In this document: positions 10,094-37,278 of the stretch, piece by piece
Layout: every line of letters begins with the position of its first letter
Numbering within the stretch: position 1 is the stretch's first letter
Origin: an uncultured Geobacter sp.
GTDB taxonomy: Bacteria > Desulfobacterota > Desulfuromonadia > Geobacterales > Geobacteraceae
Length of the DNA: 43,476 nucleotides
Assembly (NCBI GenBank): GCA_903925075.1
Contig: CAIYDQ010000362.1
Span: 1-43,476 of the forward strand
Direction of reading: 5' to 3'
Program-made: the position numbers and the translations under genes
Notes under the pieces: model-generated
Seen by the model: the letters and a program-made list of their open reading frames with translations, nothing else
Told to the model about the DNA's origin: nothing
The model's database searches: none

Positions 10094-10098
10094 CTGGA

Positions 10099-10887: not shown

Positions 10888-10917
10888 AGCTGGCGCCGGT
10901 CACAGAGTGGTTGCAAC

Positions 10918-11292
10918 ATGGAGCAGTTGGTCTACATAGCGCTTTTCGGCGCCCTTGGTTGCCTCGCCCGCTACTTTCTTTCCGGGTGGGTGTACCAGCT
11001 TTTCGGCAGGGGCTTTCCCTACGGCACCCTGGCCGTCAACGTCATCGGGGCATTTCTCATCGGGCTGATCATGGAGTTCTCCATCCGGAGCGCCCTCGTC
11101 TCGCCTACCCTCAGGATCGCGCTCACCATCGGTTTCCTCGGGGGGCTCACCACTTTTTCCACCTTCAGTTTCGAGACCTTCCGCCTGCTTGAAGAGGGCG
11201 CTTTCCTGATTGCCTTTTTCAACGTGTTAGTCAGCGTAATATCCTGTCTTGCCTGCACCTGGATCGGCATCATGGTAGCCAGGGCGATGTGA
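10918..11292 (+). CDS. crcB: Fluoride exporter CrcB/FluC
   Basis: A 124-residue four-helix membrane protein. Diagnostic motifs are GALGCLARYFLS at the N-terminus, GTLAVNVIGAFLIG (the conserved Asn of the pore) and GFLGGLTTFSTFSFE (the TTFSTF motif that lines the fluoride pathway and contributes to the central Na+ site). FluC forms antiparallel homodimers that passively release F-. A single gene is present, consistent with a homodimer. It lies 30 bases after the barrel protein and 155 before a DUF190 gene, a frequent neighbour of crcB. No fluoride riboswitch fits in the 30-base gap. Confidence 0.95.
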   Translation: MEQLVYIALFGALGCLARYFLSGWVYQLFGRGFPYGTLAVNVIGAFLIGLIMEFSIRSALVSPTLRIALTIGFLGGLTTFSTFSFETFRLLEEGAFLIAFFNVLVSVISCLACTWIGIMVARAM

Positions 11293-11310
11293 CAACGGCC
11301 AAAAAGCCGT

Positions 11311-11412
11311 TCAACGTTCTACGTTCGACGTTCTACGTTGAAGGAATCGAACATCGCACCGCTTTTAGCCGTTGCCTTTCGCGTTGAACGTAGAACGTAG
11401 AACGTAGAACGG
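11311..11412. repeat. Inverted repeat of AACGTAGAACGTAG units
   Basis: The left arm (about 11311-11340) contains CGTTCTACG heptad-like units; the right arm (about 11383-11412) is the inverted copy with three successive GTAGAAC units. The loop is about 40 bases. A small separate stem, ACGGC around CAAAAA and GCCGT, lies just upstream at 11295-11310. The element separates crcB from the DUF190 gene. The same unit recurs as direct repeats at 22368-22402. Confidence 0.8.
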
Positions 11413-11447
11413 TTTCTGCCGTAGAACGGTTTATAAGGAGTAAGCAA

Positions 11448-11813
11448 ATGGAGACAAAGCAAATGGAGATAAAGGAAATGGTCGGCGAACAGGCCCTGCT
11501 GAGGATTTTTATCGGGGAGAGCGACCGATTCGCACATATCCCGCTCTACGAGGCGCTGGTGGAACTCTTCCGCAAGGAGGGATTCGCCGGGGCCACCGTG
11601 CTGCGCGGCGTCGCCGGCTTCGGCGCCCACAGCATGTATCATACCGACAGGCTGCTGCGCCTTTCCTCGGACCTGCCGATCGTGCTGGAAGTGGTCGACA
11701 GCAAGGAGCGCTTCGATGCCGTTTTGCCTCAGGTGGAGGAGATGATGGACGGGGGGATGATCACCATGGAAAAGGTCTCCGTCTGGCGCTATGCGCGCAA
11801 GCGCGACGCTTGA
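11448..11813 (+). CDS. DUF190 family PII-like protein
   Basis: A 121-residue cytoplasmic protein. Family landmarks are LLRIFIGESDRF..IPLYEALVELFRKEGFAGATVLRGVAGFG near the start and LSSDLPIVLEVVDSKERFDAVLPQV later. These match DUF190 proteins, which have a ferredoxin-like fold related to PII signalling proteins and are often encoded next to crcB or chromate/ion transporters. AAGGAG lies 8 bases before the ATG. Because crcB is just upstream, a role in sensing or handling fluoride is a reasonable inference, though the repeat between them may separate their transcripts. Confidence 0.85.
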   Translation: METKQMEIKEMVGEQALLRIFIGESDRFAHIPLYEALVELFRKEGFAGATVLRGVAGFGAHSMYHTDRLLRLSSDLPIVLEVVDSKERFDAVLPQVEEMMDGGMITMEKVSVWRYARKRDA

Positions 11814-11864
11814 AACCGCTAAGTCACCTGCTACACTTCGCTAGTTCATGAAAAGGAGCAAGCA

Positions 11865-16048: not shown

Positions 16049-17458
16049 ATGTCCGAGGAAGTTTTCGACCTGGTGGTAATCGGCGCGGGTCCCGGCGGCT
16101 ATGTTGCCGCCATACGAGGAGCCCAGCTCGGCCTGAAGGTGGCCGTGGTGGAGAAGCGGGAGACGCTGGGAGGCGTCTGCCTGAACGAAGGGTGCATCCC
16201 GAGCAAGGCGCTGCTTGATTCCAGCGAACTGTTCCACCTGGCCCGCGAGCGTTTCGCCGGGCACGGCATCGAGGTGGCGCCGCCGACCCTTAACCTGGGC
16301 CGGATGATGGCGCGCAAAAATGAGGTGGTGAAGAAGCTCACCGACGGCGTCGCCTATCTCTTCAAGAAAAACAATATCCGCAGTTTTGCCGGCACAGCCG
16401 CGCTCCTGGGTGCCGATGCGGCCGGCAGCCAGCAGGTGGAGGTGCTAGGAGAGAACGCGACGCGGCTCACGGCCAAAAAGGTGCTGCTTGCCACCGGCAG
16501 CGAGGCGGTGCAGATTCCCTCGCTCCCCTTTGACGGCGAAACGGTGGTGAGCGCGCGCGAGGCGCTCGCCTTCGGCGAGGTGCCGGGGCACCTGCTGGTG
16601 GTGGGGGGAGGCTACATCGGCCTGGAACTCGGCTCGGTCTGGCTTAGGCTTGGCGCTCGGGTGACCGTGGTCGAGATGCTGCCGCGCCTGGTGGCCGGCA
16701 GCGACGGTCAGGTGGCGGACGCGCTGATGCGCTCGCTCAAGAAACAGGGGATGCGCTTCCTGATGGGGGCCAAGGTGGCCGGGGTGGAGCGGCGAGAGGG
16801 CGGACTGGTGGCGCGGGTGGAGCTCGAAGGGGGCGCGCAGGAGATCGAATGCGACAAGGTGTTGGTGGCCGTCGGCCGCAGGCCGCTGACTGCGGGCCTG
16901 GGGCTTGAAAAACTGGGCGTAAAGATGGAGCAGGGGCGCGTGCTGGTCGACGTCGATTACCTCACCAGCGTGCCGGGGATCTACGCCATCGGCGATCTGA
17001 TCGCGGGGCCGATGCTGGCCCACAAGGCGATGGAGGAGGGAGCTGTCTGCGTGGAGCGGATGCAGGGGGAGCCGAGCCTGGTCGATTACGGCTGCGTCCC
17101 CGGAGTCTGCTATACCTGGCCCGAGGCGGCCTCCGTCGGCAGGACCGAGGAGGCGCTCAAAGAGGCGGGCATCCCCTACAAGGTCGGCAGGTTCAATTTC
17201 TCCGCCAACGGCCGGGCGATGTGCATGGACGAGAGCGAGGGGTTCGTCAAGGTGCTCGCCGAAAGCGAGGGGGGGCGGGTGCTGGGGGTCCATATCCTCG
17301 GGCCGCGCGCCTCCGACATGATCGTCGAAGCCGTCACCGTGATGAGCTTTGGCGGGAGCGGCGAAGACATCGCCCTCACCATGCATGCCCATCCGACCCT
17401 CTCCGAGGCGGTCAAGGAAGCCGCCCTCAACCTGGACAAGCGGGCGATCCACGGCTGA
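16049..17458 (+). CDS. lpdA: Dihydrolipoyl dehydrogenase (E3)
   Basis: A 469-residue flavoprotein that reoxidises dihydrolipoamide of E2 with NAD+. It has an FAD-binding GAGPGGYVAA at 12-21, the redox disulfide in GGVCLNEGCIPSK (C44 and C49), an NAD-binding GGGYIGLELGSVW (~190), the second FAD motif YAIGDL (~313-318) and the C-terminal active-site His-Glu in HAHPTLSEA (~445). The order and length are standard. It starts 40 bases after sucB and is followed at once by lipB, so it probably serves this complex, although E3 can also be shared with pyruvate dehydrogenase and the glycine cleavage system. Confidence 0.97.
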   Translation: MSEEVFDLVVIGAGPGGYVAAIRGAQLGLKVAVVEKRETLGGVCLNEGCIPSKALLDSSELFHLARERFAGHGIEVAPPTLNLGRMMARKNEVVKKLTDGVAYLFKKNNIRSFAGTAALLGADAAGSQQVEVLGENATRLTAKKVLLATGSEAVQIPSLPFDGETVVSAREALAFGEVPGHLLVVGGGYIGLELGSVWLRLGARVTVVEMLPRLVAGSDGQVADALMRSLKKQGMRFLMGAKVAGVERREGGLVARVELEGGAQEIECDKVLVAVGRRPLTAGLGLEKLGVKMEQGRVLVDVDYLTSVPGIYAIGDLIAGPMLAHKAMEEGAVCVERMQGEPSLVDYGCVPGVCYTWPEAASVGRTEEALKEAGIPYKVGRFNFSANGRAMCMDESEGFVKVLAESEGGRVLGVHILGPRASDMIVEAVTVMSFGGSGEDIALTMHAHPTLSEAVKEAALNLDKRAIHG

Positions 17459-17470
17459 AAGAAACACCTG

Positions 17471-18097
17471 GTGCGCGACATGGTTTATACAGATCTGGGG
17501 ATGATCGGCTACGCCGAGGCGCTGACGCTGCAGGAACGGCTGGCCTCGGCGGTGCTGGCAGGCCATGAGGAGACCTTGCTGCTCCTGGAGCACCCCGCCG
17601 TCTACACCATCGGCTCCGGGGGAAGCCTCGCCAACCTGCTCGATCCGGAGATCCAGGCGCTGCGGGTCAACCGCGGAGGGGACGTGACCTACCACGGACC
17701 GGGACAGTTGGTCGGCTACCCGATCCTCGATCTGTCGCGGCGCGGCCGTGACCTGCACCGTTACCTGCGTTTCCTGGAAGCCTTCCTGCTGCGACTGGCG
17801 GCGGAGGTCGAGGTCGCCGGCTTCGCCGTGCCGGGGCGCACCGGGGTCTGGACCGGGCGCGGCAAACTCGCATCCATCGGGGTGGGCGTCAGGCGCTGGG
17901 TGTCGATGCACGGCTTTTCCCTCAACGTTTCTCCGGACACCTCGGCTTTTGCCCGCATCAACCCGTGCGGCATGCCCGGCTGTCGCATCACCTCGCTGGC
18001 CCTGGAAACGGGGGGCGAACTCGCCATGGAGGACGTCAAGGAACTGGTTCGCGCCAGTTTCCACCATATGCTGGAGCAGCACCTACCGCTAGCCTGA
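17471..18097 (+). CDS. lipB: Octanoyl-[acyl-carrier-protein]:protein N-octanoyltransferase
   Basis: A 208-residue LipB. It moves octanoyl from ACP to the lipoyl-domain lysine of E2 or GcvH, the first step of lipoate synthesis. Seen are RGGDVTYHGPGQLVGYPI, GVWTGRGKLASIGVGVRRWVS with the catalytic Lys (K132) and NPCGMPGCRITSL with the catalytic Cys (C166), counting from the GTG at 17471. An ATG at 17480 is an equally possible start, as no strong ribosome binding site decides between them. It starts 12 bases after lpdA, so the complex and an enzyme that lipoylates it are encoded together. lipA, needed to insert sulfur, is not in the window. Confidence 0.95.
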   Translation: MRDMVYTDLGMIGYAEALTLQERLASAVLAGHEETLLLLEHPAVYTIGSGGSLANLLDPEIQALRVNRGGDVTYHGPGQLVGYPILDLSRRGRDLHRYLRFLEAFLLRLAAEVEVAGFAVPGRTGVWTGRGKLASIGVGVRRWVSMHGFSLNVSPDTSAFARINPCGMPGCRITSLALETGGELAMEDVKELVRASFHHMLEQHLPLA

Positions 18098-18141
18098 TCG
18101 TCGTTCGGCAATTTACCTGCATCTTCTTCAAGGAGGCTCGT

Positions 18142-20565
18142 ATGTCGGCAACAGATTGCAAAGTCCCCGTAGAAAAACTCAGGTGGGTGTGCGACCCCGC
18201 CCTGTTCAGCTTCAAGACCACCTCCGAGATCGCCACCCTGGAAGGGAGCATCGGCCAGGAGCGCGCGCTCGCCTCGATAGATTTCGGGCTGGGCATGACG
18301 GACGGCGGTTTCAACCTCTACCTGGCGGGCGAACCGGGCACCGGCAGGAGTTCCACCATCAGCAGCATGCTGAAGAAACGGGTGAAGGACAGCTCCCCTC
18401 CCAGCGATTGGTGCTACGTGCACAACTTCGCCGCGCCGGATGCGCCGCTGGCGCTCTCCCTGCCGGCGGGGATGGGGAGCGAACTCGAGCGGGACATGCG
18501 CGAACTGCTCGAATACGTGCGGGCCAACATCCCGAGCGCCCTGGACAGCAAGGAGTACGAGACCAACCGGGTCGCCCTGGTCGAGCGGTATCAGGAGAAA
18601 AACGGCGAGATCTTCTCCGGGCTGGAAAAGGAGGCGCAGGAAAACGGCTTCGCGCTGCAGCGCACCGTGTCCGGACTGGTGATCGTGCCCCAGAAAGAGG
18701 GGCGCAACTTCACTCAGGAAGAATACGAGGCGCTGGAAAAAGAGGAGCGGGACAGGGTCGACGCCCTGGGGCGCGAGCTGACGGAAAAGCTCAACGACGG
18801 GCTCAGGCAGGTGCGCGAGAACGAGAAGGCGCTCAAGAACGCCCTGGCGCAGTTGGACCGGGAACTGGGGCTGTCCGCGGTCGGCCACCACCTGAACCCC
18901 CTCAAGGAGAAGTACGCCGGCTTCCAGAAGATCCTGCATTACCTGGAGAGCGTGCAGGAGGACCTGCTTTTAAACCTCGAGGACTTCAAGCCGCAGGCCC
19001 CTCCCCCGCAGATCCCCGGATTGAAGCTTCCCAAGCAGGAGCCGACCTTCGAGCGCTACCAGGTGAACGTCCTGGTGGAGCACAACCCCGAAAACGGCGC
19101 GCCCATCGTCTTCGAGTCCAATCCCACCTACAACAACCTTTTCGGCCGCATCGAGAACATCATGCAGATGGGGGGGGTGGCCACCACCAACTTCACCCTG
19201 ATCAAGCCGGGCGCGCTGCACCGCGCCAACGGCGGCTACCTGGTGGTGGACGCGCGCGAGGTGCTGATCAACCCGTTCGCCTGGGAGTCGCTCAAACGCT
19301 GCATCAGGAACTCCGAGATCCGGATCGACGACGTGCTGGAGCAGTACCGGTTCATGACCGTGGTGTCGCTGAAGCCCGAGCCGATCCCGCTGCGCGCCAA
19401 GATCATCATGATCGGCTCGCTCTGGATTTACTACCTGCTGTTCCACCTGGAGCCGGACTACCGGAAGTTCTTCAAGGTTAAGGCGGATTTCGACAGCAGG
19501 TTGAACCGCAGCCCGGAGATCATGCAGGACTACGCGCTCTTCGTCGCCACCCATTGCAAGACCGAAGGGCTGCTCCCCTTCGACGCCGGCGGGGTCGCCG
19601 CGCTCCTGGAGCACGCCTCGCGCCTGGTCGAGGACCAGGACCGGCTCTCCGCGCAGTTCACCGAGCTCTCGGACCTGATCAGGGAGGCGAGTTACTGGGC
19701 CAAGCGCGAAGACGCCGAAGTGGTGGACCGGGGCTGGGTCAAAAAGGCGATCAGGGAGAAGACCTACCGCAGCAACCGGATCGAGGAGCGCATCCAGGAA
19801 TACCTGGCCGACGGCACCATCCTCTGCGATACGGCCGGCGGCACGGTCGGGCAGATCAACGGGCTGTCGGTGATGACCCTCGGCGACTACGCCTTCGGCA
19901 GGCCGTCGCGCCTCACCGCGCGCGTCTCGCTGGGACGCGCCGGCATGGTGAACATCGAGCGGGAGGTCAAGCTCTCCGGGCCGATCCACGACAAGGGGAT
20001 GATGATCCTGACCGGCTACCTGGCGGGGAAATTCGCCCGGGAGACCCCGCTCTCCTTTTCCGCCTCCATCTGCTTCGAGCAGTCCTACGAGGGGGTCGAG
20101 GGGGATTCCGCCTCCTCGACCGAACTCTACGCCCTGCTTTCCGCCATCTCCGGGCTCCCCATCCGGCAGGGGGTGGCGGTGACCGGCAGCGTGAATCAGC
20201 ACGGGCAGGTGCAGCCGATCGGCGGGGTGAACTACAAGATCGAGGGGTTCTACGCCGTCTGCAAGGCCAAGGGGCTGACCGGCGAGCAGGGGGTGATGAT
20301 CCCGAAGCTCAACGAGCGCAACCTGATGCTGAGCGACGAAGTGGTGCAGGCGGTCGAGTCGGGGAGCTTCCATATCTGGAGCGTCGCCGACGTGGACCAG
20401 GGGATCGAGATCCTGACCGGGGTGCCGGCGGGAAAGGCGGCCGACGACGGCAGCTACCCGGAGGGGAGCGTGAACTTCCTGGTGGAGCAAAGGTTGAAGG
20501 CGATGGTGGAGAGCATGCGGCGCTTCGCCGTGCCCCAGGAAAAAAACGGCGCCAAGAGCGAATAG
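18142..20565 (+). CDS. Lon-type ATP-dependent protease (AAA_32/S16)
   Basis: An 807-residue protease. The frame is open further upstream, but the ATG at 18142 has AAGGAGG in front and gives the family start. An AAA+ module holds the P-loop GEPGTGRSS (residues 63-71), in which Arg69 takes the place of the usual Lys. A coiled-coil region at ~130-275 is inserted in it, and Walker B is GGYLVVDARE. The C-terminal S16 protease domain has the Ser-Lys dyad: S656 in EGDSASST and K699 in GGVNYKIEGF, 43 residues apart as in E. coli Lon (S679/K722). There is no Lon N-domain, so this is the LonB/LonC-like type. It presumably degrades unfolded or regulatory proteins in the cytoplasm. Confidence 0.9.
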   Translation: MSATDCKVPVEKLRWVCDPALFSFKTTSEIATLEGSIGQERALASIDFGLGMTDGGFNLYLAGEPGTGRSSTISSMLKKRVKDSSPPSDWCYVHNFAAPDAPLALSLPAGMGSELERDMRELLEYVRANIPSALDSKEYETNRVALVERYQEKNGEIFSGLEKEAQENGFALQRTVSGLVIVPQKEGRNFTQEEYEALEKEERDRVDALGRELTEKLNDGLRQVRENEKALKNALAQLDRELGLSAVGHHLNPLKEKYAGFQKILHYLESVQEDLLLNLEDFKPQAPPPQIPGLKLPKQEPTFERYQVNVLVEHNPENGAPIVFESNPTYNNLFGRIENIMQMGGVATTNFTLIKPGALHRANGGYLVVDAREVLINPFAWESLKRCIRNSEIRIDDVLEQYRFMTVVSLKPEPIPLRAKIIMIGSLWIYYLLFHLEPDYRKFFKVKADFDSRLNRSPEIMQDYALFVATHCKTEGLLPFDAGGVAALLEHASRLVEDQDRLSAQFTELSDLIREASYWAKREDAEVVDRGWVKKAIREKTYRSNRIEERIQEYLADGTILCDTAGGTVGQINGLSVMTLGDYAFGRPSRLTARVSLGRAGMVNIEREVKLSGPIHDKGMMILTGYLAGKFARETPLSFSASICFEQSYEGVEGDSASSTELYALLSAISGLPIRQGVAVTGSVNQHGQVQPIGGVNYKIEGFYAVCKAKGLTGEQGVMIPKLNERNLMLSDEVVQAVESGSFHIWSVADVDQGIEILTGVPAGKAADDGSYPEGSVNFLVEQRLKAMVESMRRFAVPQEKNGAKSE

Positions 20566-22428: not shown

Positions 22429-23523
22429 CTACCGCCGTCTTTCATCCCGAGCACGCCTTCGACAGCCAAGAAGCGTCAGGCGGAACCAGATCCGAACCAT
22501 GGTTGCCGCGACGAAATCCCCCCCCCTGTTGTCGATCAGCCGCGCCAGCCATCGGTCGTGGCAGGCCAAGAACCTTCCCCCTTTCCCCGCGCTCACCCCT
22601 CCCCACAGCAGGTCGAAAAAAAAGGGAATCTGCCAGGCGTTGGCGCGGACGTAGCCCCCGGTCGCCCGCCAGAAGCGGCGTCTCTCCTCGGCCGGCAGCG
22701 CGGCGATCCGTTCGGACAAGGCGACCAGCATGGGGGTCAACCGCAGCCTGTGCGCGGCGTGCTGGCTGCGATAGCTCTCCTGGAGCGAGCCGATCAGCTC
22801 CAGCCGGCCGATGGCGGCGAGATTCATCAGGATGGCGTTCAGGGTCTGTCTGGGGAGGAGCCCCTCGGCCAGGAAACGGCGCGGCGAGGTCTTGATGCGG
22901 GAGGGGAGGAGCAGCCAACTGCCGGCCCGCCTGATCCGCTCGGCGAGGAAGGTGTCCTCCATGAGCGGCAAGCGTTCGTCGAAAGGCGAGATTTCGCCGA
23001 AAAAGGCGCGGCCGATCAGCAGCCCCTGGTCGCCGTGGGTGCATCCCGGGCGGTCGAGGGTGGCCTTGGCCTGATAGAAGCGGTACGGCAAGGGGGGAGT
23101 GTGGTCGAACGCGAATTCCAGCGCGAAGCGACCGGCGACCCGGCCGTCGCCGCCGCGGAGGGCGCCCGCCAGCGCGTCCAACCCCCGGCGAAAGGAGAGG
23201 GGATCGGGGAAGCTTGAGTCGATGTGCAGAAAGAGCAGCGTCGACGCGCGGGCGACCGGGACCGCCAGGTTCATCTGCCTGGCCCTCCCCTTTGCCCCCG
23301 CGACCACCTGCACCGGAAAGCCCGCTTCCTGACGAAGCCTCGCCGCCGCGGCGGCGCTCTCGTCCGTCGAGCCGCCGTCGGAGAGGATCAACTCGAAGCG
23401 GACCTCGCGCTGTCGCGCCAACTCGGCGAAGAACGGGGCCAGGCCCCGCTCCTCGTTGAAAACCGGCACGATCAGCGAGAGTTCCGGGCGCTCCTCAAAG
23501 CACAAGGCTGTCCGCTTTCTCAA
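22429..23523 (-). CDS. Family 2 glycosyltransferase (TIGR04283-like) with C-terminal extension
   Basis: A protein of up to 364 residues. The N-terminal ~230 residues are a GT-A glycosyltransferase: LSLIVPVFNEERGL, LILSDGGSTDES, AKGRARQMNLA and LFLHIDSSFPDP (DxD position), close to the rSAM/selenodomain-associated transferase 2 group. The last ~130 residues (from about LTPMLVALSERI) are extra compared with that group, include hydrophobic stretches and are not recognised. The first start is a TTG at 23523, which overlaps the end of cheV by 29 bases; a second TTG six codons later is possible. Both genes are on the minus strand, so they are co-transcribed, though a functional link is not obvious. 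Confidence 0.8.
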   Translation of the reverse strand: MRKRTALCFEERPELSLIVPVFNEERGLAPFFAELARQREVRFELILSDGGSTDESAAAAARLRQEAGFPVQVVAGAKGRARQMNLAVPVARASTLLFLHIDSSFPDPLSFRRGLDALAGALRGGDGRVAGRFALEFAFDHTPPLPYRFYQAKATLDRPGCTHGDQGLLIGRAFFGEISPFDERLPLMEDTFLAERIRRAGSWLLLPSRIKTSPRRFLAEGLLPRQTLNAILMNLAAIGRLELIGSLQESYRSQHAAHRLRLTPMLVALSERIAALPAEERRRFWRATGGYVRANAWQIPFFFDLLWGGVSAGKGGRFLACHDRWLARLIDNRGGDFVAATMVRIWFRLTLLGCRRRARDERRR

Positions 23524-24436
23524 CCAGGTTGGGGAGGTCCGGCTTGGTCAGGATGTCGCTGGCGCCCAGGTCCTTCCAGCGCGCCTTGTTGTCTTCGCTC
23601 GCCAGCGAGGAGAAGATCACCACCGGCACGTCGTCCAGGGTGCTCTCTTTTCTGATCAGCGCGGTCAGGTGCAGCCCGTCCATGCGGGGCATCTCGATGT
23701 CGGTGATGATCAGGTTCAGCATCTTGGAGATGGGCGTTCTCTTCTCCAGCGAGGCGCCGCGTATGGCGCTGACGATGTTCCACGCCTCCTCGCCGTTTTC
23801 CGCCTCCAGCACGTTGTACCCCGCGGTGCGCAGCGAGCCGGCGATGGTGTTGCGGATGAAGTTGGAGTCGTCGGCCACCAGGATGGTCTTCTCGCCGCGG
23901 TTGACGGTCGAGTGCGCCAGCATCAGTTCCTCGCTGGGGGCGGAAAGCGCCATGGTCGAGGAGAGCTCGCCGATGATCTTCTCGAAGTCGAGGATCAGGA
24001 TGATGCGGTCCTCCATCTTCACCACGCCGGTGATGTTGGCGTCGTGGATCGCCCTGACCGGCGGCTCCACGTTTTCCCAGGAGATGCGGTAGATGCGGGA
24101 GACGGAGTGGACCAGGATGCCGACGATGACCCGGTTGAACTCAAGGACGATGACCCGGTCGGCGGTCAGCCCCTCGGTGTTCTTGTTCAGCGACTTGGCC
24201 AGGTCGATCAGGGTGATCACCTGGTCGCGCAGCTTGATCATGCCGCTCACGGCGGCGTTGGAGTTCACCACCTTGCGCAGGTTCGGCAGCCGGATGATCT
24301 CCCGGACCTTGGCGACGTTGACGCCGAAGTAGCAGGGAATGACGTTGCCCTTGTTGTCGACCTCGTCGATCCTGAACTCCACGATCTCAAGCTCGTTGGT
24401 GCCGGTCTCCAAGAGGATCTTCTTGTTCGTTTCCAT
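23495..24436 (-). CDS. cheV: Chemotaxis coupling/response protein CheV
   Basis: A 313-residue protein with a CheW-like domain (~15-165: ELEIVEFRID, NVAKVREIIRLP, GMIKLRDQVITLIDLAKSL) and a receiver domain (~185-313: ILVADDSNFIRNT, phospho-Asp in IITDIEMPRMDG, Lys in ILTKPDLPN). CheV couples receptors to CheA and is itself phosphorylated, which helps adaptation. A purine-rich GGGGG site precedes the ATG. It is 6.5 kb from the cheA module and may supply a CheW-like coupling protein for it, since that module has none. Confidence 0.93.
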   Translation of the reverse strand: METNKKILLETGTNELEIVEFRIDEVDNKGNVIPCYFGVNVAKVREIIRLPNLRKVVNSNAAVSGMIKLRDQVITLIDLAKSLNKNTEGLTADRVIVLEFNRVIVGILVHSVSRIYRISWENVEPPVRAIHDANITGVVKMEDRIILILDFEKIIGELSSTMALSAPSEELMLAHSTVNRGEKTILVADDSNFIRNTIAGSLRTAGYNVLEAENGEEAWNIVSAIRGASLEKRTPISKMLNLIITDIEMPRMDGLHLTALIRKESTLDDVPVVIFSSLASEDNKARWKDLGASDILTKPDLPNLVEKADSLVL

Positions 24437-28342: not shown

Positions 28343-29350
28343 ATGCGCAACGACGATTACGAAGCCTTTAGGCCTTATCTGCAGCCGGAGATGCGGTTGG
28401 AAATGGGCATCCCGCTGGTGGGCGGCGGGGTGTTCCGCGACTGGGCGATCATCAGCGAGTCCGCGGAAGACAAGCTGCTGGTGCAGATCTCCCGGGATGT
28501 GCTCCCCACCAACGTGCGTATCGATCTCGGATTCATCCTCGATGTGAGCATCACCATCAAGGATGAGGTCTACACCTGCAGCGGCATCGTGGTGGAAAAA
28601 TTCGGAGCCAGGATTCTGCGCATCCAGCTTTTCGGCGTTTTCAACCTGCGCGAGCGCCGTCAATATTTCCGCCTGGACATCAACCTGAAGATCAAGTACG
28701 CGCTGGTGACCGACGAGAGCTGGAGCGAAGTCGAGAGCGACTGGGAGCTGCGCAAGAACCTCGAACACATCAAATTTCAGGGCCTGGACGAGGTCGCTTT
28801 GGCCGAGGCGAGGGCGCGCTACGGCAAGCCCAGGGAGCGCGAGTGGCGCGAGATGTTGCGGAGCGAGGTCAACCTCGGGGGAGGAGGGATCGGCATCCGG
28901 CTCCCCGAACCGGTGAGCCCCGATCAGCTTATCTGTCTGGTCGTCCATCTCCCCCTCAACCCGCCCCGGGAGATCCAGGCGGTAGCCCAGGTCCTGATGG
29001 TGAAGCCGCCCGAGCAAAGGGGGCGCCGCATGATCTACGAGGCGGGGATGCAGTTTGTCTGCATGAACGACAAGGACCGCGAACTGATCTTTCAGCACAT
29101 CTCCATCTCGCAACTGGAGTATCTGAGGGAGACCGCCGACCGCCGCGACCTCACCTTCGCCGAGCGCAGCGAACTGAGCAAGGCGGAGAAACGGCGGCGG
29201 CTGCTGATCAGGATTTTGTGGAGCGGCCTCTTTCTGGTGCTGACTTCTTACCTCGTCAGGTATTTCATCTACTACGAGCAGGAACACCCCTCCAACGAGA
29301 TTCAGAGAACCTACGAAAAGGCGATCAGGCAGTACCGTCATCTGGACTGA
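28343..29350 (+). CDS. PilZ-domain protein with C-terminal membrane helix
   Basis: A 335-residue protein. The N-terminal ~100 residues look like the YcgR/PilZNR flagellar-brake fold (LGFILDVSITIKDEVYTCSGIVVE). The c-di-GMP motif RxxxR occurs in RERRQYFR (103-110). The second motif is NLGGGGIGI (~177), with Gly instead of the usual Ser. A charged linker of ~45 residues (WSEVESDW ... RYGKPREREW) lies between the two PilZ motifs, longer than usual. Near the C-terminus one membrane helix (~293-310: ILWSGLFLVLTSYLVRYF) is followed by a short charged tail. It probably relays c-di-GMP levels to a membrane machine; which one is unknown. Confidence 0.8.
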   Translation: MRNDDYEAFRPYLQPEMRLEMGIPLVGGGVFRDWAIISESAEDKLLVQISRDVLPTNVRIDLGFILDVSITIKDEVYTCSGIVVEKFGARILRIQLFGVFNLRERRQYFRLDINLKIKYALVTDESWSEVESDWELRKNLEHIKFQGLDEVALAEARARYGKPREREWREMLRSEVNLGGGGIGIRLPEPVSPDQLICLVVHLPLNPPREIQAVAQVLMVKPPEQRGRRMIYEAGMQFVCMNDKDRELIFQHISISQLEYLRETADRRDLTFAERSELSKAEKRRRLLIRILWSGLFLVLTSYLVRYFIYYEQEHPSNEIQRTYEKAIRQYRHLD

Positions 29351-30544: not shown

Positions 30545-30940
30545 CGCGAAGCTGCGGTCGCCGCTTTCAGCTGGTGACCTTTCGTAACTATCTGAAAAAC
30601 AACAACTCATGATAAAAGATAAAATTTGTCTTTAGCTATCGTTTCCAGCATCCGAATAGGTGTGGAGTAGGTGGGACCGGACGAGCGCGCAGAGGAGGCG
30701 GGGCGAACACAAGGTTCGCCCCTACGGGAAGGGAGTATGCGCCCGTTATAGGGTGTTTACCCGATAGCTGAAACGGCCGCTTCAAAGTAATCATGAAGTA
30801 GCGGCGCGTTGGGCATGCATGGGCGGCACCAAAGCTCTTCCCTCGGGAGCGCCGCCGCGGGCCCGGTTGCCGTCCGAACGTTTACCCATGGTTAACCGAC
30901 TAGAATGAGCTGCGCATCCGATATCGGGAAACATTCATCC
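30545..30940. other. Intergenic region upstream of the chemosensory module
   Basis: A 396-base spacer without a visible gene. It contains the small palindrome at 30700-30722 (listed separately), an AT-rich stretch at 30590-30640 that could carry the cheA promoter, and sequence pieces in inverted orientation either side of the palindrome (GCTTTCAGCTGG at about 30561 and AGCTGAAACGGC at about 30766). No clear -35/-10 pair, sigma-54 site or sigma-28 site was found. Confidence 0.4.
30700..30722. repeat. Small palindrome GGGGCGAAC/GTTCGCCCC
   Basis: Perfect 9-bp arms, GGGGCGAAC and GTTCGCCCC, around the loop ACAAG, followed by TACGGG. From memory this unit (gggcgaac-acaag-gttcgcccctac) recurs in intergenic DNA of many environmental bacteria. 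One copy here. Confidence 0.75.
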
Positions 30941-33103
30941 ATGAATACCTTAACGCAACAGTTCATCGCTGAAGTAAGGGACTATGTCGACGAGGCCGCC
31001 ACGGGGTTTCTGGCCCTTGAGCAGTCCGCGCACGATCAGTCCCTCATCAACGGCATCTTTCGAAATTTCCATACCATCAAAGGCACCTCCGGCATTTTCC
31101 CGGAGTTCGCTCCCATTACCTCCCTGACCCACGTCGCCGAAGACCTGATGGACCAGATCAGAAACGGCGAGCGGGAGATCAGCACCGACCTGGTGGACCT
31201 GTTCCTCGCGACTCTCGACCTGCTCTCCACCTGGATCGACGCTCTGGAAGCCAACGGTTTGCTCCCCGCCAGCGCGGAGAGCGCCGGCGAGGATCTGCGC
31301 GGCCGCATTCTCGTCATCCTGGGGGAGGGGGGAGCCGCTCAACCGCCTGAGGAGACCGGGGCGGAGCAAGCCGGCGACGAGGGGGACGACTGCCGGCGTC
31401 GACTGCTGGCGGCCTGGCTCCTCGGTTTGGAGGCCGCAGAGAAAGCACGGTTGGATGAGTTGGCTCGCATCTCGCCCGCCGCCGTCGCCTTTTGCTACAC
31501 CCCGGACCCTTCTTGTTTTTTCTTCGGCGAGGACCCGGTCAACCTGTTTCGCCAATTGGACCAGATCCACCAACTGCGCGCCGTGCTGCCCGATGCGCCG
31601 GTAGACGTCGGCGCGCTCGATCCCTTCGCCTGCTGCATCAGCTTCATCGCCGTGTCGTGCGACCAGACCGAGGACATCGACAGCGTCTTTGGCTACGTCA
31701 GGCAGCAGATCACCCTGCTCCCCCTTGAGCAGGCGCTACTTCCGCCGCCGGCTGCTTCAGCCTCTGCTTCAGCGTCTGCTTCAGCGGTCCCGGCTCCGGC
31801 TCCGGCCCCGGCCCCGGCCGGCGCGTCGATCGTGCTGGGCCTTTCCGCCGAGGCGCCGGCGGCCGAAGCGCCGGAGTTCGTCGCCAATGCCGCGGCGGGT
31901 GGGACGCGAGCCGGCGCCGCCACCTTCATCCGGGTCGACCAACTGCTCATCCACCGCTTCACCGACCTGGTGGGCGAGATGATCATCGCCAAAAACAGCC
32001 TTCCCTACCTGTGCCAGCGCGCGGACAGCGAGTACCTGGCGCCGGAGCTGGCCGGCGAGATCGACGCCTGTTACACGACCATCAACCACATCGTCGGAGG
32101 GCTGCAGGACATCGCCATGGGGATGCGCATGCTGCCGGCCAGCAAGGCGTTCGAGCGCTTCCCGAGGCTGGTGCGCGACATCTCCCACAAACTCGGCAAA
32201 AAGATCGCCCTGTCCCTGGAAGGCGAGGATACCTGCGCCGACAAGGACGTCATCGAGGCCCTGGCCGAGCCGCTGGTGCACATGGTGCGCAACAGCCTCG
32301 ATCACGGCATCGAGCTCCCCGAGGAGCGCCTTGCGGCCGGCAAAAGCGCGGAAGGACGGATCACCCTGCGGGCGGCGCAGGAGACTGCCTGCATCGTGGT
32401 GCAGATCATCGACGACGGCAAGGGGATCGACCCGGCGATGATCAGGCGCAAGGCCGCGGAAAAGGGGATCATGTCCGCCGAGGCGCTCTCTGTCATGCCG
32501 GACGACGAGGTGATCCAACTGGTGATGGCGCCCAACTTCTCCACGGCCGAGACGATCTCCGACCTCTCCGGGCGCGGGGTCGGCATGGACGCGGTCCACG
32601 CTATGGTTACCTTCTTCGGCGGCTCGATCCGGGTGGCGAGCAAGCTCGGGCAGGGAACCACCGTGCGCATCTCGCTGCCGCTCAGCATGGCCGTCACCAA
32701 GGCGCTGATCGTGCGCCAGGGCGCATGCACCTTCGGCATCCCCGCCGCCGAAGTGGTGGAAAGCATCATCAACATACCCCTCTCCCGGGTGGTCACGGTG
32801 CGCACCGCTCCCGGCCTGAAGGTGCGCGGCGAACTGCTGCCGCTCTATTCCATGGAGCGCCTGCTGGACATGGAGGGCGCCCACCCCTGGTTCCCGGAGG
32901 GGTTTTCCGCCGTGGTGGTGCGGATGCGCAACGAGGTCGTCGCCCTGTCCGTGGAAACGTCCAGCGACATCGTCGAGGTGGTGGTGAAGCCGCTGCATCG
33001 CGCGCTGGCCCATCTCTCCATATACACGGGGAGCACCATCCTCGGCGACGGCTCCATCATGTTCATGCTCAATCTCGCCGAGGTGATCGCCCATGCCGAT
33101 TAG
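30941..33103 (+). CDS. cheA: Chemotaxis histidine kinase CheA
   Basis: A 720-residue kinase (an ATG 12 codons earlier at 30905 is possible; neither has a strong ribosome binding site). Domains: P1/Hpt with phospho-His H44 (NFHTIKGTSG); a middle domain (~160-270) of the kind found in place of P2 in many CheAs; a linker of ASASASA and PAPAPAP repeats (~270-300); P3 dimerisation; P4 kinase with the N-box HMVRNSLDHGIE, G1 DDGKGID and G2 SGRGVGMD; and P5 CheW-like. All catalytic motifs are intact. It would phosphorylate the CheY and possibly the receiver of the long protein downstream. Its last 11 bases overlap the next gene. Confidence 0.95.
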   Translation: MNTLTQQFIAEVRDYVDEAATGFLALEQSAHDQSLINGIFRNFHTIKGTSGIFPEFAPITSLTHVAEDLMDQIRNGEREISTDLVDLFLATLDLLSTWIDALEANGLLPASAESAGEDLRGRILVILGEGGAAQPPEETGAEQAGDEGDDCRRRLLAAWLLGLEAAEKARLDELARISPAAVAFCYTPDPSCFFFGEDPVNLFRQLDQIHQLRAVLPDAPVDVGALDPFACCISFIAVSCDQTEDIDSVFGYVRQQITLLPLEQALLPPPAASASASASASAVPAPAPAPAPAGASIVLGLSAEAPAAEAPEFVANAAAGGTRAGAATFIRVDQLLIHRFTDLVGEMIIAKNSLPYLCQRADSEYLAPELAGEIDACYTTINHIVGGLQDIAMGMRMLPASKAFERFPRLVRDISHKLGKKIALSLEGEDTCADKDVIEALAEPLVHMVRNSLDHGIELPEERLAAGKSAEGRITLRAAQETACIVVQIIDDGKGIDPAMIRRKAAEKGIMSAEALSVMPDDEVIQLVMAPNFSTAETISDLSGRGVGMDAVHAMVTFFGGSIRVASKLGQGTTVRISLPLSMAVTKALIVRQGACTFGIPAAEVVESIINIPLSRVVTVRTAPGLKVRGELLPLYSMERLLDMEGAHPWFPEGFSAVVVRMRNEVVALSVETSSDIVEVVVKPLHRALAHLSIYTGSTILGDGSIMFMLNLAEVIAHAD

Positions 33104-33362
33104 TCTTAGCAGCGTCCAGGGAGAGCCGCGGATCGTTCTGGAGGGGGTGGTCTCCCCCGAGGAGGTGGACCAGCTCCACGAGCTGCTGCGCGACCATCCG
33201 GGCGCAGGCGTCGACCTGCGCGCCTGCGAACACCTGCACACGGCCGCGCTGCAGTTGCTTTTGCTGCTGAAAACGCCGGTTGCCGCACCTTCCGATACGC
33301 CATTTTGGCGCCACTTTTTCCCCCAGGAGGAAGCAGTACATGAAGACGATCATGCTGGTTGA
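33093..33362 (+). CDS. Small STAS-domain protein
   Basis: An 89-residue protein whose ORF overlaps cheA by 11 bases and cheY by 23 bases; GAGGTG lies before the ATG. The pattern IVLEGVVSPEEVDQLHELL ... VDLRACEHLHTAALQLLLLL matches the STAS (anti-anti-sigma) fold, in which the conserved phospho-Ser/Thr region (D-S-x-G) appears here as HTAAL, so phosphorylation is uncertain. STAS genes occur in some chemosensory clusters. The tight nesting implies coupled translation with cheA and cheY. It is easily missed by annotation. Confidence 0.7.
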   Translation: MPISLSSVQGEPRIVLEGVVSPEEVDQLHELLRDHPGAGVDLRACEHLHTAALQLLLLLKTPVAAPSDTPFWRHFFPQEEAVHEDDHAG

Positions 33363-33702
33363 CGATTCCACCACCTTATTGATGAGCATGAAGGTGATTT
33401 TGGAGAAGGCAGGCTACGCGGTGGAAACCGCAACCGGAGGCGATCTGGCCTTGGGGAAGCTGAAAACCATGAAGCCCAACCTGCTGATCACCGACCTGAA
33501 CATGCCCGGCATGGACGGCATCACGCTGATCAGGGAGGTCAAGAAACTGCCGACCTGCCGTTTCATGCCGGTGCTGGTGATGACCACCGAGTCGCAGCAG
33601 AGTAAGCGCGACGAGGCCCGCGGCGCAGGCGCCACCGGCTGGCTGGTGAAGCCGGTCAAGCCGGAAGAGCTGCAGGCCGTTTTGAAGAAGCTTTTGCCCT
33701 AA
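33340..33702 (+). CDS. cheY: CheY-like single-domain response regulator
   Basis: A 120-residue receiver protein. The ATG at 33340 has AGGAGG upstream; the frame open from 33280 is not used. Acid pair D8/D9 (LVDDSTT), phospho-acceptor D52 in [13 protein letters not shown], conserved Thr in VMTTES and Lys in [11 protein letters not shown]. It has no output domain, so it acts by protein contact. It is the likely direct target of the adjacent CheA and the substrate of any phosphatase in the module. Confidence 0.95.
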
Positions 33703-33778
33703 AAGCATCCGCCGTGACAGGGAGTCGTCTCCCGTCGGGACCTTTGCCCGGCCGGCATCTACCTCAGGAGGTTCCCCG

Positions 33779-35059
33779 TTGAACAACCGACCTCACACCA
33801 ATGCCCCGCCGCATCTTCTCTGGCTCATGCGCCACGGCGTGCTCTGCCTGCCGGCGGTCTGCGTGCTGCTCTTCGCCCTGTCGCTGGCCGTTCGCTGGTG
33901 CTTCGCTCCCGCCGCCACCTCCTGGCTCGCCATGGCGGCGGAGGCCTTGGCGGTGGCGGCGCTGGGCACGGTTCCCGCCGGCCTGGGCCTGCTTTTTCTG
34001 GGCCAGGCGGCGCGGCAGATCGAGCCGCTCTGCGAGAGCCTGAGCGACAGCCATGCGCGCCTGCGGCAGGATCTGAGCGGCTTCGCCGCGCAGATTTCCG
34101 CCAGCATCGGCGCCTCGACGCGCCTGAACCGCTCGCACCTCAACTCGGTGATCCAGGATACCGAAGGGGCCTCCGGGGAGATCGTCTCCTCCCTGTTGGC
34201 GATCGACGGCGGCGTCGGTTCGCTCTTGCAGGAGATGGACAGCTTCATCAGCCAGACCTCGACCACCCTGTCGGACTCCAACCAGGTGCTGGCGAGCAAC
34301 TCGACGCTGGTGGCTTCGATCGAGCGGCATCTGCTCTCCAGAGAAGGCGCCTTGGCGCAGGAGCAGGCGCGCTTGAAAACCATCGTGGACACGGTCGGCC
34401 AGCTTGCCGAGTTGGTCACCCACATCAGGGACATCAGCGACCAGACCAACCTGCTGGCGCTGAACGCCGCCATCGAAGCGGCCCGAGCCGGCGAAGCCGG
34501 ACGCGGATTCGCGGTGGTGGCGGACGAGGTGAGGCGGCTCTCCTCCACCGTGGACGCCACCGCCACCCGGATCGGCAACGGCATGAAGGACATGGAGAAA
34601 CTGATCAACGCCGAGTTTTCGCAACGGGCGGCGCGCGCGGAGGTGACCGAGGAGAACGACCGGCTGAACGCGCTACGCGGCCAACTGGTGACCCTGGAGG
34701 AGTTGATGCGCGCCATTCAGGAGCAGGTGACGGTCACCATCCATAGCCTGCGCGAGCGCGGCGGCTCCATCGAAACGCTGGTGATGAACGCCACCGGCGC
34801 CGTGCAGTTTCAGGACATCACCCGACAAAAAATCGAGCAGGTGATCTCCATACTGGAGGCGCTTTCCTCGGGCATGGAGGCGGTGGAGCGCCGCTCGACC
34901 GAGCCGGATTTCTGCCCGGACCAGATCCAGGCCATGCTCTACGACGCCGAAAGCGCCTTCAACAGCTACGTCATGGAAGACCAGCGCCGCACCCATGAAG
35001 CCGAAACCGGCGCACGCCAGTCGGGGCAGGCGGGCCTGGCCGCGGTGGAGCTGTTCTGA
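33779..35059 (+). CDS. MCP-like signalling protein with no sensory domain
   Basis: A 426-residue protein (TTG start with AGGAGG upstream). Two membrane helices, ~21-42 and ~49-75, lie only about 7 residues apart, so there is no periplasmic ligand domain. There is no HAMP domain; a long cytoplasmic coiled coil follows, with the canonical MCP tip [20 protein letters not shown] and [15 protein letters not shown] at ~219-253. After the tip, the sequence departs from normal MCPs: at 340-360 it reads [15 protein letters not shown], matching the CheZ active-site pattern (DFQDLTGQ; Asp and Gln four apart, here D346 and Q350). It presumably activates the adjacent CheA and might dephosphorylate CheY. 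The stop overlaps the start codon of the next gene. Confidence 0.85.
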
Positions 35060-37278
35060 TGGCGGGACCACAGGGAGCAAAGGACATGACGACTGCGGAG
35101 ATGGAGAAGGGCGGTCTGCACGCCGTGCTGCTGGGCGAGGACGACGCGGAGCGCGGGGCATTGTTGTCGCAACTCGCCGGCTCCTGCCACAGCGTGGCGG
35201 TGGCCGATTCGGTTCAGGAGGCGCTGGAGCGCCTGGCCCTGATAAAAACGGATCTGGCGGTGCTCTGCAGCCGGCCGGAGGAGGAACTGTTCGCCCTGGC
35301 GGTCGCCATGCTGGAGGCGCGCCCCGAACTGCAGGTGATACTGGTAGGTCCCCCGGCGGATGCCCGGACCATCTGCCGCGCCATGGAGCTGGGGATAGCG
35401 TCTTACTGCGTCCGGCCGGTGGAGCCGGCGCGCTTGCAGGCGGCGCTTTCCCGCTGCCGCCGCGAGCTTGCTTTGCGCGACGCCTTCCACTGCAGCTGCT
35501 TCGTGGCGGCCAACAGCGACCCGCGCCACGCCTATCTGCATCTGGAGCGCGGCGGCGGCATCAGGCAGTTGAACGACTCCGCGCGGCAGATGGCGCCGAT
35601 CGACGACGCCGTCGGCGCAGGGATGAGCGAGTTCTCCCTCTTTGCCTCCCGGGCCCTTGCCGACCGTCGCGGCGACACGGTGGACGCTTTGCTGACCGCC
35701 GCCCTGGCGGCAAAGGCCTGGCGCGGAGAATTGTACGGCAACGGCGGCGACGGCGGCAGGATATACGAGGTGGAGGTCCTTCCCTGCCCGTCGCAAGGGA
35801 CCGGGTTTTGCGGGGTCGCCATCCGCGAGGTGAGCCGCTACGCCGCGGTCATCGACGAACTGCTGCTGCGGGAAAACGAGGCCCTCGACCTGCTGCAGTT
35901 GCGCGCTCCCAAGACAGCGGTTCTCGAACAGGAAAAGCTGCGGCCCATCGAGCTGGAAGCCCTGGTCACACAGGCCTTCCAGGCCGGTTGCGGCGCGCCG
36001 CTGACGGTCAAGCTCGACCCTCACGTCCCTCCCTTAGCCCTGGCGCCGGCGGCTCCCTTGCAGGAGCTGTGCGCGGGGCTCGCCCTGCACGTGAGTTCCC
36101 TGTCCAAAGTGCGCTCGGTCGTCTTCAGCGCGGCGGTAAAAGAGCACGCGCCCGAGGAGGTGGTGGCGACCTGCAGCTTCGCCGTGCAGTGCGCCGTCGA
36201 CGCCACCCGCCATCTCGCCGCGAGCGACTATCTTGCCCCGTCGCCCACCGGGGGGGGGAGGGTGCACGGCATAGGGCTGGCCGCGGCTCGCGCCGAGGCC
36301 CTGGGGGGGCGCCTCACCGTGAAGAGCGTCGCCGAAGAGGGGCTTCGCTTTTCCTTCCGGCTGCGCCTGCAAGCGGCGCAGGGAAGGGAGGCGCCGCCGG
36401 CGCCGCCCGCGGCGCCGGCCGATTCCGGCGGCACGAGTTTCTGGAGTCAGCCCGATTCCCCCTTGCTCGTCCCGCACCCCGGCGCCTGGCGCGTACTGGT
36501 GGCGGACGACAACGTCATCGATCAAGTGGGCCTGAAATGCCTGCTGGAGGAAGCCGGCTGCCAGGTCGTCACCGTGGGCGACGGGCGCGAGGCCATGGAC
36601 GAATTCGAATTCGGCGAGTACGATCTGGTGCTGATGGATATCCTGATGCCGGTGATGGACGGCTTCGAGGCCACCCGAGTGATCCGGGAGCAGCAGCGGC
36701 TGACCGGCGCCCGCACGCCGATCATCGCCCTCACCTCCTATGCGCTGAAGGCGGTTCGCGACAAATGCATCAGCTCCGGCATGAACGGCTACATCTCCAA
36801 GCCGGTGAAGCAGGCCGACATCGCGGCGCTCTTAGCCTCCCTGTCCCCCCCGGCCGCGTCGCCGGCCCGGGCGCCGCTGGCGGCGGCAGAGTCCCGTCCC
36901 GATCTCGCCCGGCTGGTCCCCGCGTGGTTGCAGGTGCTGAACGTCGCCGGCAAGCTGGTCGGCCTTAACGGCAGGGTTTCCATTTACCGGCAGTTGGTGA
37001 CGGTGTTCGAAGAATTCGCCGACGACCAGCTCGCCCACCTCCTGTCGGCGCTCTCCTCGGCCGACGCCGGCGACGCGGAACATGCGGCCCACAAGTTGCG
37101 GGGCTCGGCCGGCGCCTTGGGAGGCGAGCGTTTGGCCGCGCTGCTCAAGTCTATCGAGGAGCTGACGCGCGGCGGGGAGCTGGGCTGCGGCGATAAATGG
37201 GGAGAGTTGGTGAGCGCCGAGTACGCGGCGCTCAAGGGTGCCCTGGCGGCAATCGACTGGGAAGAGCTCGGCGGGTGA
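35059..37278 (+). CDS. Receiver/pseudo-kinase/receiver/Hpt hybrid protein
   Basis: 739 residues from the ATG overlapping the previous stop, or 730 from the ATG at 35086 (GGGAG site). Residues ~20-140: receiver-like, but where the phospho-Asp should be it reads DLAVLCSRPEEE, so probably inactive. ~145-285: PAS-like or unclassified. ~290-440: resembles a histidine-kinase core, but no phospho-His helix (no H-E-x-x-T/N-P) is seen, the N-box is LQELCAGLALHVSS without Asn, G1 is absent, and only a G2-like HGIGLAAARAEALGG remains. ~475-595: an intact receiver with D527 (LVLMDILMPVMDG). ~620-739: Hpt domain with H678 in HAAHKLRGSAGALG. It looks like a phosphorelay scaffold that cannot phosphorylate itself and must be charged by another kinase, most simply CheA. 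Confidence 0.85.
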   Translation: MAGPQGAKDMTTAEMEKGGLHAVLLGEDDAERGALLSQLAGSCHSVAVADSVQEALERLALIKTDLAVLCSRPEEELFALAVAMLEARPELQVILVGPPADARTICRAMELGIASYCVRPVEPARLQAALSRCRRELALRDAFHCSCFVAANSDPRHAYLHLERGGGIRQLNDSARQMAPIDDAVGAGMSEFSLFASRALADRRGDTVDALLTAALAAKAWRGELYGNGGDGGRIYEVEVLPCPSQGTGFCGVAIREVSRYAAVIDELLLRENEALDLLQLRAPKTAVLEQEKLRPIELEALVTQAFQAGCGAPLTVKLDPHVPPLALAPAAPLQELCAGLALHVSSLSKVRSVVFSAAVKEHAPEEVVATCSFAVQCAVDATRHLAASDYLAPSPTGGGRVHGIGLAAARAEALGGRLTVKSVAEEGLRFSFRLRLQAAQGREAPPAPPAAPADSGGTSFWSQPDSPLLVPHPGAWRVLVADDNVIDQVGLKCLLEEAGCQVVTVGDGREAMDEFEFGEYDLVLMDILMPVMDGFEATRVIREQQRLTGARTPIIALTSYALKAVRDKCISSGMNGYISKPVKQADIAALLASLSPPAASPARAPLAAAESRPDLARLVPAWLQVLNVAGKLVGLNGRVSIYRQLVTVFEEFADDQLAHLLSALSSADAGDAEHAAHKLRGSAGALGGERLAALLKSIEELTRGGELGCGDKWGELVSAEYAALKGALAAIDWEELGG

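Follow-up and report, generated by a model that had tools for sequence, protein, structure and literature searches.

The stretch of DNA analysed here, called the window, comprises 43,476 nucleotides (nt) of an uncultured Geobacter sp. (assembly GCA_903925075.1, contig CAIYDQ010000362.1, positions 1 to 43,476 of the forward strand) and carries, between positions 30941 and 37278, a chemosensory module of five genes encoding CheA, a small STAS protein, CheY, an MCP-like receptor and a protein composed of receiver (REC), pseudo-kinase and Hpt domains. We propose that the receptor of this module bears, in its C-terminus, a CheZ-like site that dephosphorylates phosphorylated CheY (CheY-P), and that the locus is a reduced relative of the F9-type chemosensory systems. 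On the sequence evidence presented below, we give this reading a probability of about two in three. Receptors of this type, i.e., MCP-like receptors with a CheZ-like C-terminal segment, are called MCPZ; genomes, contigs and loci are designated, where needed, by our own handles (G, C and L numbers).

The receptor gene (33779–35059, + strand; 426 amino acids, aa) starts with TTG, with AGGAGG upstream. Its product belongs to the MCPsignal family (PF00015; 81.8 bits for a cut-off of 34.6) and has an intact tip. It is sensorless, as an earlier reading of the sequence alone (the sequence-only reading) had described it: hydropathy gives two membrane helices and a short loop at about residues 12–70 (33812–33988, +), and no ligand-binding domain. 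In an AlphaFold2 monomer (predicted template modelling score, pTM, 0.44), helices occupy residues 12–18, 23–42 and 49 onward in a long helical protein. The signalling hairpin tip (residues 224–255; 34448–34543, +) is mostly invariant in receptor alignments. It is followed by the CheZ-like segment (residues 294–368; 34658–34882, +), which contains the putative phosphatase site D346-I-T-R-Q350 (34814–34828, +) directly preceded by AVQFQ, and the protein ends with the tail AAVELF (35039–35056, +), in which E424 and F426 are at least 90% conserved. In E. coli CheZ, the catalytic pair is numbered D143/Q147. Residues 341–350 of the receptor match the active-site pattern AxxFQ-DxxxQ of CheZ, whose phosphatase motif DXXXQ is described in a passage of PMC7750401 as lying next to AXXFQ across proteobacteria.

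Several comparisons connect this segment with CheZ. The NCBIfam CheZ model NF041271 matches residues 294–368 with an E value of 1.3e-7. In hhalign, an alignment of 84 MCPZ rows matched 12 CheZ proteins over 72 columns (E 5e-5, probability 66%, or 64% in reverse), whereas 47 ordinary receptors compared with CheZ in the same way gave E 0.04–0.11 and a probability of about 1%; on these ordinary-receptor controls, we reject a generic coiled-coil similarity to CheZ. The 84 rows are the window and 83 MCPZ frames from 86 loci (L076, L093 and L138 gave none), and L163, which duplicates L162, was not in the hhalign set. A profile built on the C-terminal segment alone (A4, 35 rows) aligns to the CheZ of PDB entry 1KMI, D on D and Q on Q, with E 0.048. 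When applied to 119 genomes from a single gammaproteobacterial order, the same profile found matches in 47, and the 30 loci that we took from them hold 16 receptors with an Asp followed four residues on by a Gln (D+4Q), 13 CheZ-sized proteins and one soluble protein of 191 aa. The CheZ-sized proteins measure 226–263 aa and end with DDLLxSLGF in 12 of 13 cases (L185 ends otherwise); the four that were checked (L178, L180, L182 and L185) all score above the Pfam CheZ cut-off. In the phylum of the window, 107 of 395 genomes gave matches to the profile, and these matches include CheZ-sized as well as double receptor-like proteins.

The geometry of the site agrees with that of CheZ as well. On a helical wheel of period 3.5, the angle from the hydrophobic core is 116 degrees for D and 167 degrees for Q, to be compared with 132 and 184 degrees in CheZ, and this analysis places D346 and Q350 on the exposed face. 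Outside the motif, the hydrophobicity of MCPZ and CheZ agrees best at register 0 of the 21 registers compared (r 0.60; next best 0.46). One could nevertheless regard the protein as an ordinary sensorless receptor, in which the likeness to CheZ is that of a convergent coiled coil and the motif serves array packing or an interaction with CheD or CheR. The modest scores and the unrelated helical proteins in the PDB list speak for such a convergence, and cheD adjoins two of the eight modules known to us and a number of Rhodocyclales clusters, where CheD was recognised by its motif only. We hold this explanation to be unlikely: the same stretch of the control receptors does not match CheZ, the register is exact, the face is exposed, the receptor profile retrieves CheZ, and the methylation consensus, which is the substrate of CheR, is gone.

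The CheZ-like site occupies the region where the methylation sites of receptors usually lie. Using the methylation-site consensus, we found no strict match in the window receptor and one loose match in its first helix. The strict consensus occurs in the second helix of 2 of 81 MCPZ versus 22 of 48 other receptors, and in the first helix of a single MCPZ of the 81. We judge the methylation helix to be replaced, and not merely diverged, because the match between the MCPZ profile and that of ordinary receptors in this stretch is weak (E 0.005, probability 7%). With the full receptor as query, a PDB search returned receptors plus three chance hits (E 0.3–0.8). The proposal of the sequence-only reading that adaptation does not proceed by methylation therefore holds insofar as methylation of the window receptor is unlikely; its view of the receptor as a constitutive input is less likely, the CheZ-like site shifting the probable role toward a place of CheY-P removal.

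The distance between tip and site is almost constant in the family: from the tip motif to FQD there are 120 residues in 82 of the 84 rows and 118 in the other two. Among loci retrieved by profile, 59 of 60 could be aligned (L219, with stop codons, could not), and both D and Q are aligned in 56 of these 59, the other three (L177, L179 and L184) reading DRVSQ or DRVTQ by eye. L206 departs from the usual spacing by one residue. Where a locus already provides a D/Q row, its additional rows carry T, S or E in place of D, or N in place of Q. We also made a census blind to the motif, using the Pfam MCPsignal receptors of genomes G023, G059, G061 and G101, which were chosen as MCPZ holders, their receptors not being chosen. 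The 124 matches corresponded to 116 loci once second matches per frame were skipped, and to 101 receptors once the 15 without a recognisable tip were left out. A D+4Q pair at +118 to +122 from the tip was present in all six receptors with an [ILV]x[LF]F end, versus 3 of the 95 others (Fisher 7e-8). Two of these six, reading QFGDINGQ and belonging to an F7-like cluster of G101, had been missed by the A4 profile.

MCPZ genes mostly lie beside cheY. A single-receiver gene on the same strand lies within 300 nt of 62 of the 72 testable MCPZ genes, versus none of the 37 other receptors of the same loci; 11 of the 83 MCPZ genes are at a contig edge, and an over-long frame accounts for at least one of the ten misses, L058. 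This adjacency, like the conservation of the tail, requires only binding, and it would suit a segment that is solely a docking scaffold, holding CheY or CheY-P at the array with no catalysis. R349 and E353, two additional invariant residues, would fit with such a scaffold too. On the other hand, the D/Q pair, which is catalytic in CheZ, persists in divergent members where the Arg between D and Q varies to Ser, Thr, Val or Gly, and for us docking without catalysis is rather improbable, if somewhat less so than convergence.

Other observations weigh against a CheZ-type phosphatase site. The invariance of D and Q in the 84 rows is by construction, because the rows were selected on the motif, and likewise in the 80 named loci, the best of 383 relatives, which were taken with patterns that contain it. 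The scores stay below family thresholds, i.e., 31.4 bits for NF041271, whose curated cut-off is 350, and 15.7 bits (E 0.015) for Pfam CheZ (PF04344), whose cut-off is 30.7. Only 5 of the 58 genomes gave an NF041271 match, the MCPZ of G023, G035, G034 and G029 being missed, and the PF04344 search left five weak sub-threshold matches, including the MCPZ of G034 and a 92-aa frame in G011. In the PDB profile search, two unrelated helical proteins outscored CheZ. AAVELF is a conserved tail different from the CheY-binding C-terminal helix of CheZ (DDLLxSLGF type), and R349 and E353, invariant in the 84 rows, are absent at those places in CheZ, so that the window site may have an additional or a different function. 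CheZ is a four-helix bundle made of two dimerised hairpins; the AlphaFold2 model, with its pTM of 0.44, is of a monomer only and not of a dimer. Finally, CheX is encoded beside the module of G056, and another CheY-P phosphatase can therefore coexist with the module. To summarise the comparison with CheZ, the receptor shares with it the AxxFQ-DxxxQ site, the helix face, the hydrophobic surroundings, a flexible C-terminal tail and a gene beside cheY, and differs from it in that the site is part of a receptor hairpin that has membrane helices, by the ELF tail and by scores under the family cut-offs.

No protein above the Pfam CheZ cut-off was present in the 58 sampled genomes of the order, and a table in PMC2577667 counts no cheZ in three Geobacter genomes. 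For Geobacter relatives, where no cheZ was found, MCPZ would be a candidate CheY-P phosphatase in addition to CheC and CheX.

CheZ-like segments also occur in other settings. In a Thermodesulfovibrio genome (G063, L162), an N-terminus that looks CheW-like by eye is fused to CheZ, with FQDLTGQ and a DELLKEFGF end. The soluble 191-aa protein mentioned above (L176:1498-2073, − strand) has FYDRLSQ and a DDIELF tail, with no receptor hairpin and no Pfam match, and may be a stand-alone form of the CheZ-like module. The source genome itself encodes a second CheZ-like receptor type, a receptor-like protein of 595 aa on contig C279 (L341:7568-9355, − strand) with two CheZ-like profile matches, whose gene adjoins CheY, CheA, CheR and CheB genes. 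In long relatives (L069, L070, L220–L225), the first site mostly reads QFHD, with QMHD in L070 and QFQD in L224.

We can propose how the module would work. CheA would join the receptor array through its own P5 domain, helped by a CheW or CheV made elsewhere, and would phosphorylate the CheY of the module. The receptor is pictured as a membrane-anchored helical rod in which the methylation helix is replaced by the CheZ-type site D346-xxx-Q350, set at a constant distance from the tip, and whose flexible tail ending with ELF may tether CheY. A single receptor protein would in this way help to switch CheA and strip the phosphate from CheY-P, so that signals would be terminated at the receptor array. 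The fifth protein may receive phosphate as well, on D527 and H678, and would then form a side branch or a sink. If this is true, receptors of this kind can remove the signal as well as help to make it.

The five genes are all open frames of the + strand, in agreement with the sequence-only reading, and the junctions that it reported are exact: 11 nt are shared by cheA and the STAS gene and 23 nt by the STAS gene and cheY, 76 nt separate cheY from the receptor gene, and the latter overlaps the fifth gene by 1 nt. CheA (30941–33103, +; 720 aa, with another in-frame ATG at 30905) is fully intact, as claimed; it has Hpt, H-kinase_dim, HATPase_c and CheW matches, all above the Pfam cut-offs, and carries an Hpt domain with H44, a P3 dimerisation domain, an ATPase domain with N, G1 and G2 boxes and a CheW-like P5 domain. 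The STAS protein (33093–33362, +; 89 aa) matches STAS_2 with E 1.6e-5 and 25.4 bits, under the cut-off of 29.2, and CheY (33340–33702, +; 120 aa; Response_reg E 1.2e-27) has D52 as phospho-acceptor. The fifth gene (35059–37278, +) encodes a pseudo-REC, a pseudo-kinase, a REC with D527 and an Hpt with H678, both residues being at the positions given earlier. A scan for promoters and terminators stayed close to chance (one promoter-like site for 0.7 expected, four terminator-like sites for 4.7).

The same gene order was found again in other genomes, which rules out chance or mis-called frames. We count eight distinct modules, i.e., those of the window, G056 (also L071), G040, L072, L073, L074, L075 and L076. 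The CheA-STAS-CheY-receptor core is thus present in seven other genomes and the fifth gene was seen in six of them; the L075 stretch ends before a fifth gene could show, and the receptor of L076 is split over two frames. CheY is 80–85% identical between the window and the other modules, and the window receptor finds its counterparts with E 5e-110 in G056 and 1e-79 in G040.

To place the module among chemosensory systems, we built two CheA trees. In the first one, made by a quick method on 77 of 86 CheA hits (Marinospirillum L106 not being among those kept) and marked by long-branch warnings, including the branch below the module clade, the window CheA falls in a clade of nine rows that holds module CheAs only. 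Together with CheAs from F9-type clusters, this clade makes up a group of 16 rows that has a support of 99 and whose internal order the tree does not fix. The second tree, made by a careful method on 39 rows after removal of four long rows and thinning out of 34 Rhodocyclales-type rows, was rooted at its midpoint and included no V. cholerae sequence. Without the longest branches, the grouping of window-type and F9-type CheAs persisted: the nine module rows have supports of 100/100, the seven F9-type CheAs 84/91, and the 16 together 100/100. The window CheA is 48–49% identical to the CheAs of contig C95, G023 and G035, and 34–35% to those of G034 and G029.

One F9-type cluster lies elsewhere in the source genome, on contig C95, and has the order CheW-CheB-CheR-CheY-CheA-STAS-CheY-receptor, which is also that of G023, G035 and G101. 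The F9-type stretches of Thermodesulfovibrio and Opacimonas start at CheB and that of Marinospirillum, which is outside the trees, at CheR; beside the gene of the seventh F9-type CheA of the tree, from Aureimonas, no MCPZ was recognised. The CheW protein of the clusters of G101, G023 and G035 measures 515–526 aa, and in G101 and G023, where it has 515–518 aa, it adjoins a receptor frame with two MCPsignal matches. On contig C95 of the source genome (G000), the corresponding CheW array (16807-18246) is divided by a stop into a two-domain frame (320 aa) and a one-domain frame (177 aa), where G023, G035 and G101 have one frame of 515–526 aa. We take cluster I of V. cholerae to have the same gene order as these F9-type clusters.

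Passages of PMC7534058 give as marks of F9 in V. cholerae the triple CheW VC1402, DosM (VC1403), CheA VC1397 and the 24H receptor VC1394, a protein of which little is known. The module shares with F9 the CheA-STAS-CheY-receptor order and the grouping of the CheAs, and its receptor is membrane-anchored and has no ligand domain, as VC1394 is described there. Unlike F9, it lacks a triple CheW, a DosM-like receptor, CheB, CheR and a second CheY at its locus, it possesses the fifth REC/REC/Hpt gene, and its CheAs form a clade of their own. Judged from gene content and trees, it is a reduced F9 relative and not an F9 member by the full definition. A non-flagellar output is plausible, since deletion of the F9 cheA is reported, in the same passages, to have no detectable phenotype under standard conditions.

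The sequence-only reading had instead seen in the locus a new class that has neither a coupling protein nor methylation enzymes, that uses a constitutive receptor and that is merged with a phosphorelay. We confirmed, by open frames and Pfam, that CheW, CheR, CheB and CheD are not encoded at the locus, and the phospho-acceptor residues D527 and H678 of the fifth protein are conserved, as that model would want. This absence is only local, however, because these proteins are encoded elsewhere in the source genome (6.55 Mb in 368 contigs, completeness 99.97%), with 40 CheW-domain, 19 CheR, 13 CheB and one CheD matches, and because the window itself encodes a CheV. This CheV, with a CheW domain (100 bits) and a receiver (Response_reg, 74 bits), is encoded 6.5 kb upstream of the module (23495–24436, −) and is a possible coupling protein for it. 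Moreover, a Pfam-confirmed cheW adjoins three of the eight modules (L071, cut by the contig end, L072 and L073) and cheD two (G040 and L073, by Pfam); CheV is found beside one (L073), as is CheX (G056), and neither cheR nor cheB was seen by BLAST beside any of the eight, several stretches being cut by contig ends. As the CheA also groups with F9-type CheAs, for which reason we reject a wholly new class, we regard the model as very improbable. The sequence-only reading had itself named a described class with CheW, CheR and CheB encoded elsewhere as the outcome that would undo it, and this is, in part, what we found.

The receptor has a further set of likely kin. The McpA-like receptors (24H or unclassed) of F7 systems, such as McpA/CttP of P. 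aeruginosa and VCA1088 of V. cholerae, are described in passages of Ortega et al. (PMC7184735) as having a membrane region without ligand domain and a highly conserved C-terminus of unclear role, without the CheR pentapeptide; according to the same passages, they are dispensable for building the F7 array, and F7 clusters have cheY but no cheZ. In G101, L347 holds one or more F7-like clusters with two McpA-like receptors that carry QFGDINGQ and VELF, each just 5' of cheY and cheA; these receptors combine the D-xxx-Q motif and the VELF end with a neighbouring cheY. Unlike the window receptor, McpA-like F7 receptors sit in clusters with CheW, CheR, CheD and CheB, and the motif of those in G101 reads QFGDINGQ. 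McpA-like (24H) receptors such as VC1394 probably belong to the MCPZ type, McpA, VC1394, VCA1088 and SO_2117 (McpA of Shewanella oneidensis MR-1) being placed by gene order, topology and the G101 clusters rather than by their own sequences.

In McpA-like receptors, a phosphatase site would accord with both the conserved C-terminus and the missing CheR pentapeptide, giving a concrete job to a region whose role was called unclear; it would also fit their staying in F7 clusters though dispensable for array building. It would suggest a route for CheY-P clearance in F9-type systems and in the F7 systems without cheZ. In a passage of PMC9855816, a Shewanella McpA homologue is said to cluster with another CheA of the cell, and if this behaviour holds for MCPZ, the CheZ-like site could link two pathways as well. 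MCPZ are spread over Geobacter relatives, Rhodocyclales, Nitrospirota and gammaproteobacteria. More tentatively, and at somewhat less than even odds, the anchored sensorless 24H/McpA-like receptors of F7, F9 and F9-derived systems may form one superfamily of receptor-phosphatases, in which the methylation helix gave way to a CheZ active site, the state of the array or membrane gates dephosphorylation of the neighbouring CheY, and signal termination replaces methylation as the means of adaptation. We found no prior statement of a chemoreceptor with a CheZ site in the titles, abstracts and passages of the open-licence PMC literature; subscription papers and supplements are outside this scope, so that an earlier description is possible.

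The module sits between gre and TANGO2, and no module gene was found around TANGO2 (within 1.5 kb) in 18 sister species. Of these, 12 have gre just upstream of TANGO2 and 17 keep the gene that comes next downstream; the gre-TANGO2 gap is 0.82–0.90 kb where gre matched in full (n = 9) and about 1.3 kb in three others, versus 6,779 nt, holding the module, in the window. Among the 18 same-genus genomes, the window receptor finds generic receptors only (best E 2e-19). The GC content of the module is 64–70%, versus 57–65% in its flanks. This pattern suggests an insertion at the gre-TANGO2 site or a loss in the sister species, and the locus, as a reduced relative of an F9-type system, was probably acquired horizontally.

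All eight module STAS proteins, that of the window included, have HLHTA at the usual Ser position, with a Thr near the place of the Ser, and F9-type STAS relatives vary there. The protein may well be a partner-switch output or a scaffold. Passages of PMC10542144 do not contain the word STAS. In the fifth protein, the second-receiver Asp and the Hpt His (D527 and H678 in the window) are kept in all seven aligned rows, window included, which bears out the phosphorelay residues noted earlier. The first receiver of the window protein lacks its Asp, L074 seeming to keep a candidate one; the window protein has no Pfam HisKA match and a sub-threshold ATPase match only.

Upstream of gre, the window encodes a PilZN1-PilZ protein (28343–29350, +). 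A link with the module is not implied, because the end of this gene also adjoins gre in 3 of 18 sister stretches where the module is absent. In G040, an EAL-HDOD protein is encoded after the module, and a receiver protein and a REC-HisKA-HATPase-REC hybrid are encoded before it (L052:2166-3431, 9802-12878). In L075, the product of the gene before cheA (L075:2331-3431) combines a receiver and an HD domain, the latter of the HD_5 family; these neighbours of the G040 and L075 modules hint at a link with cyclic di-GMP.

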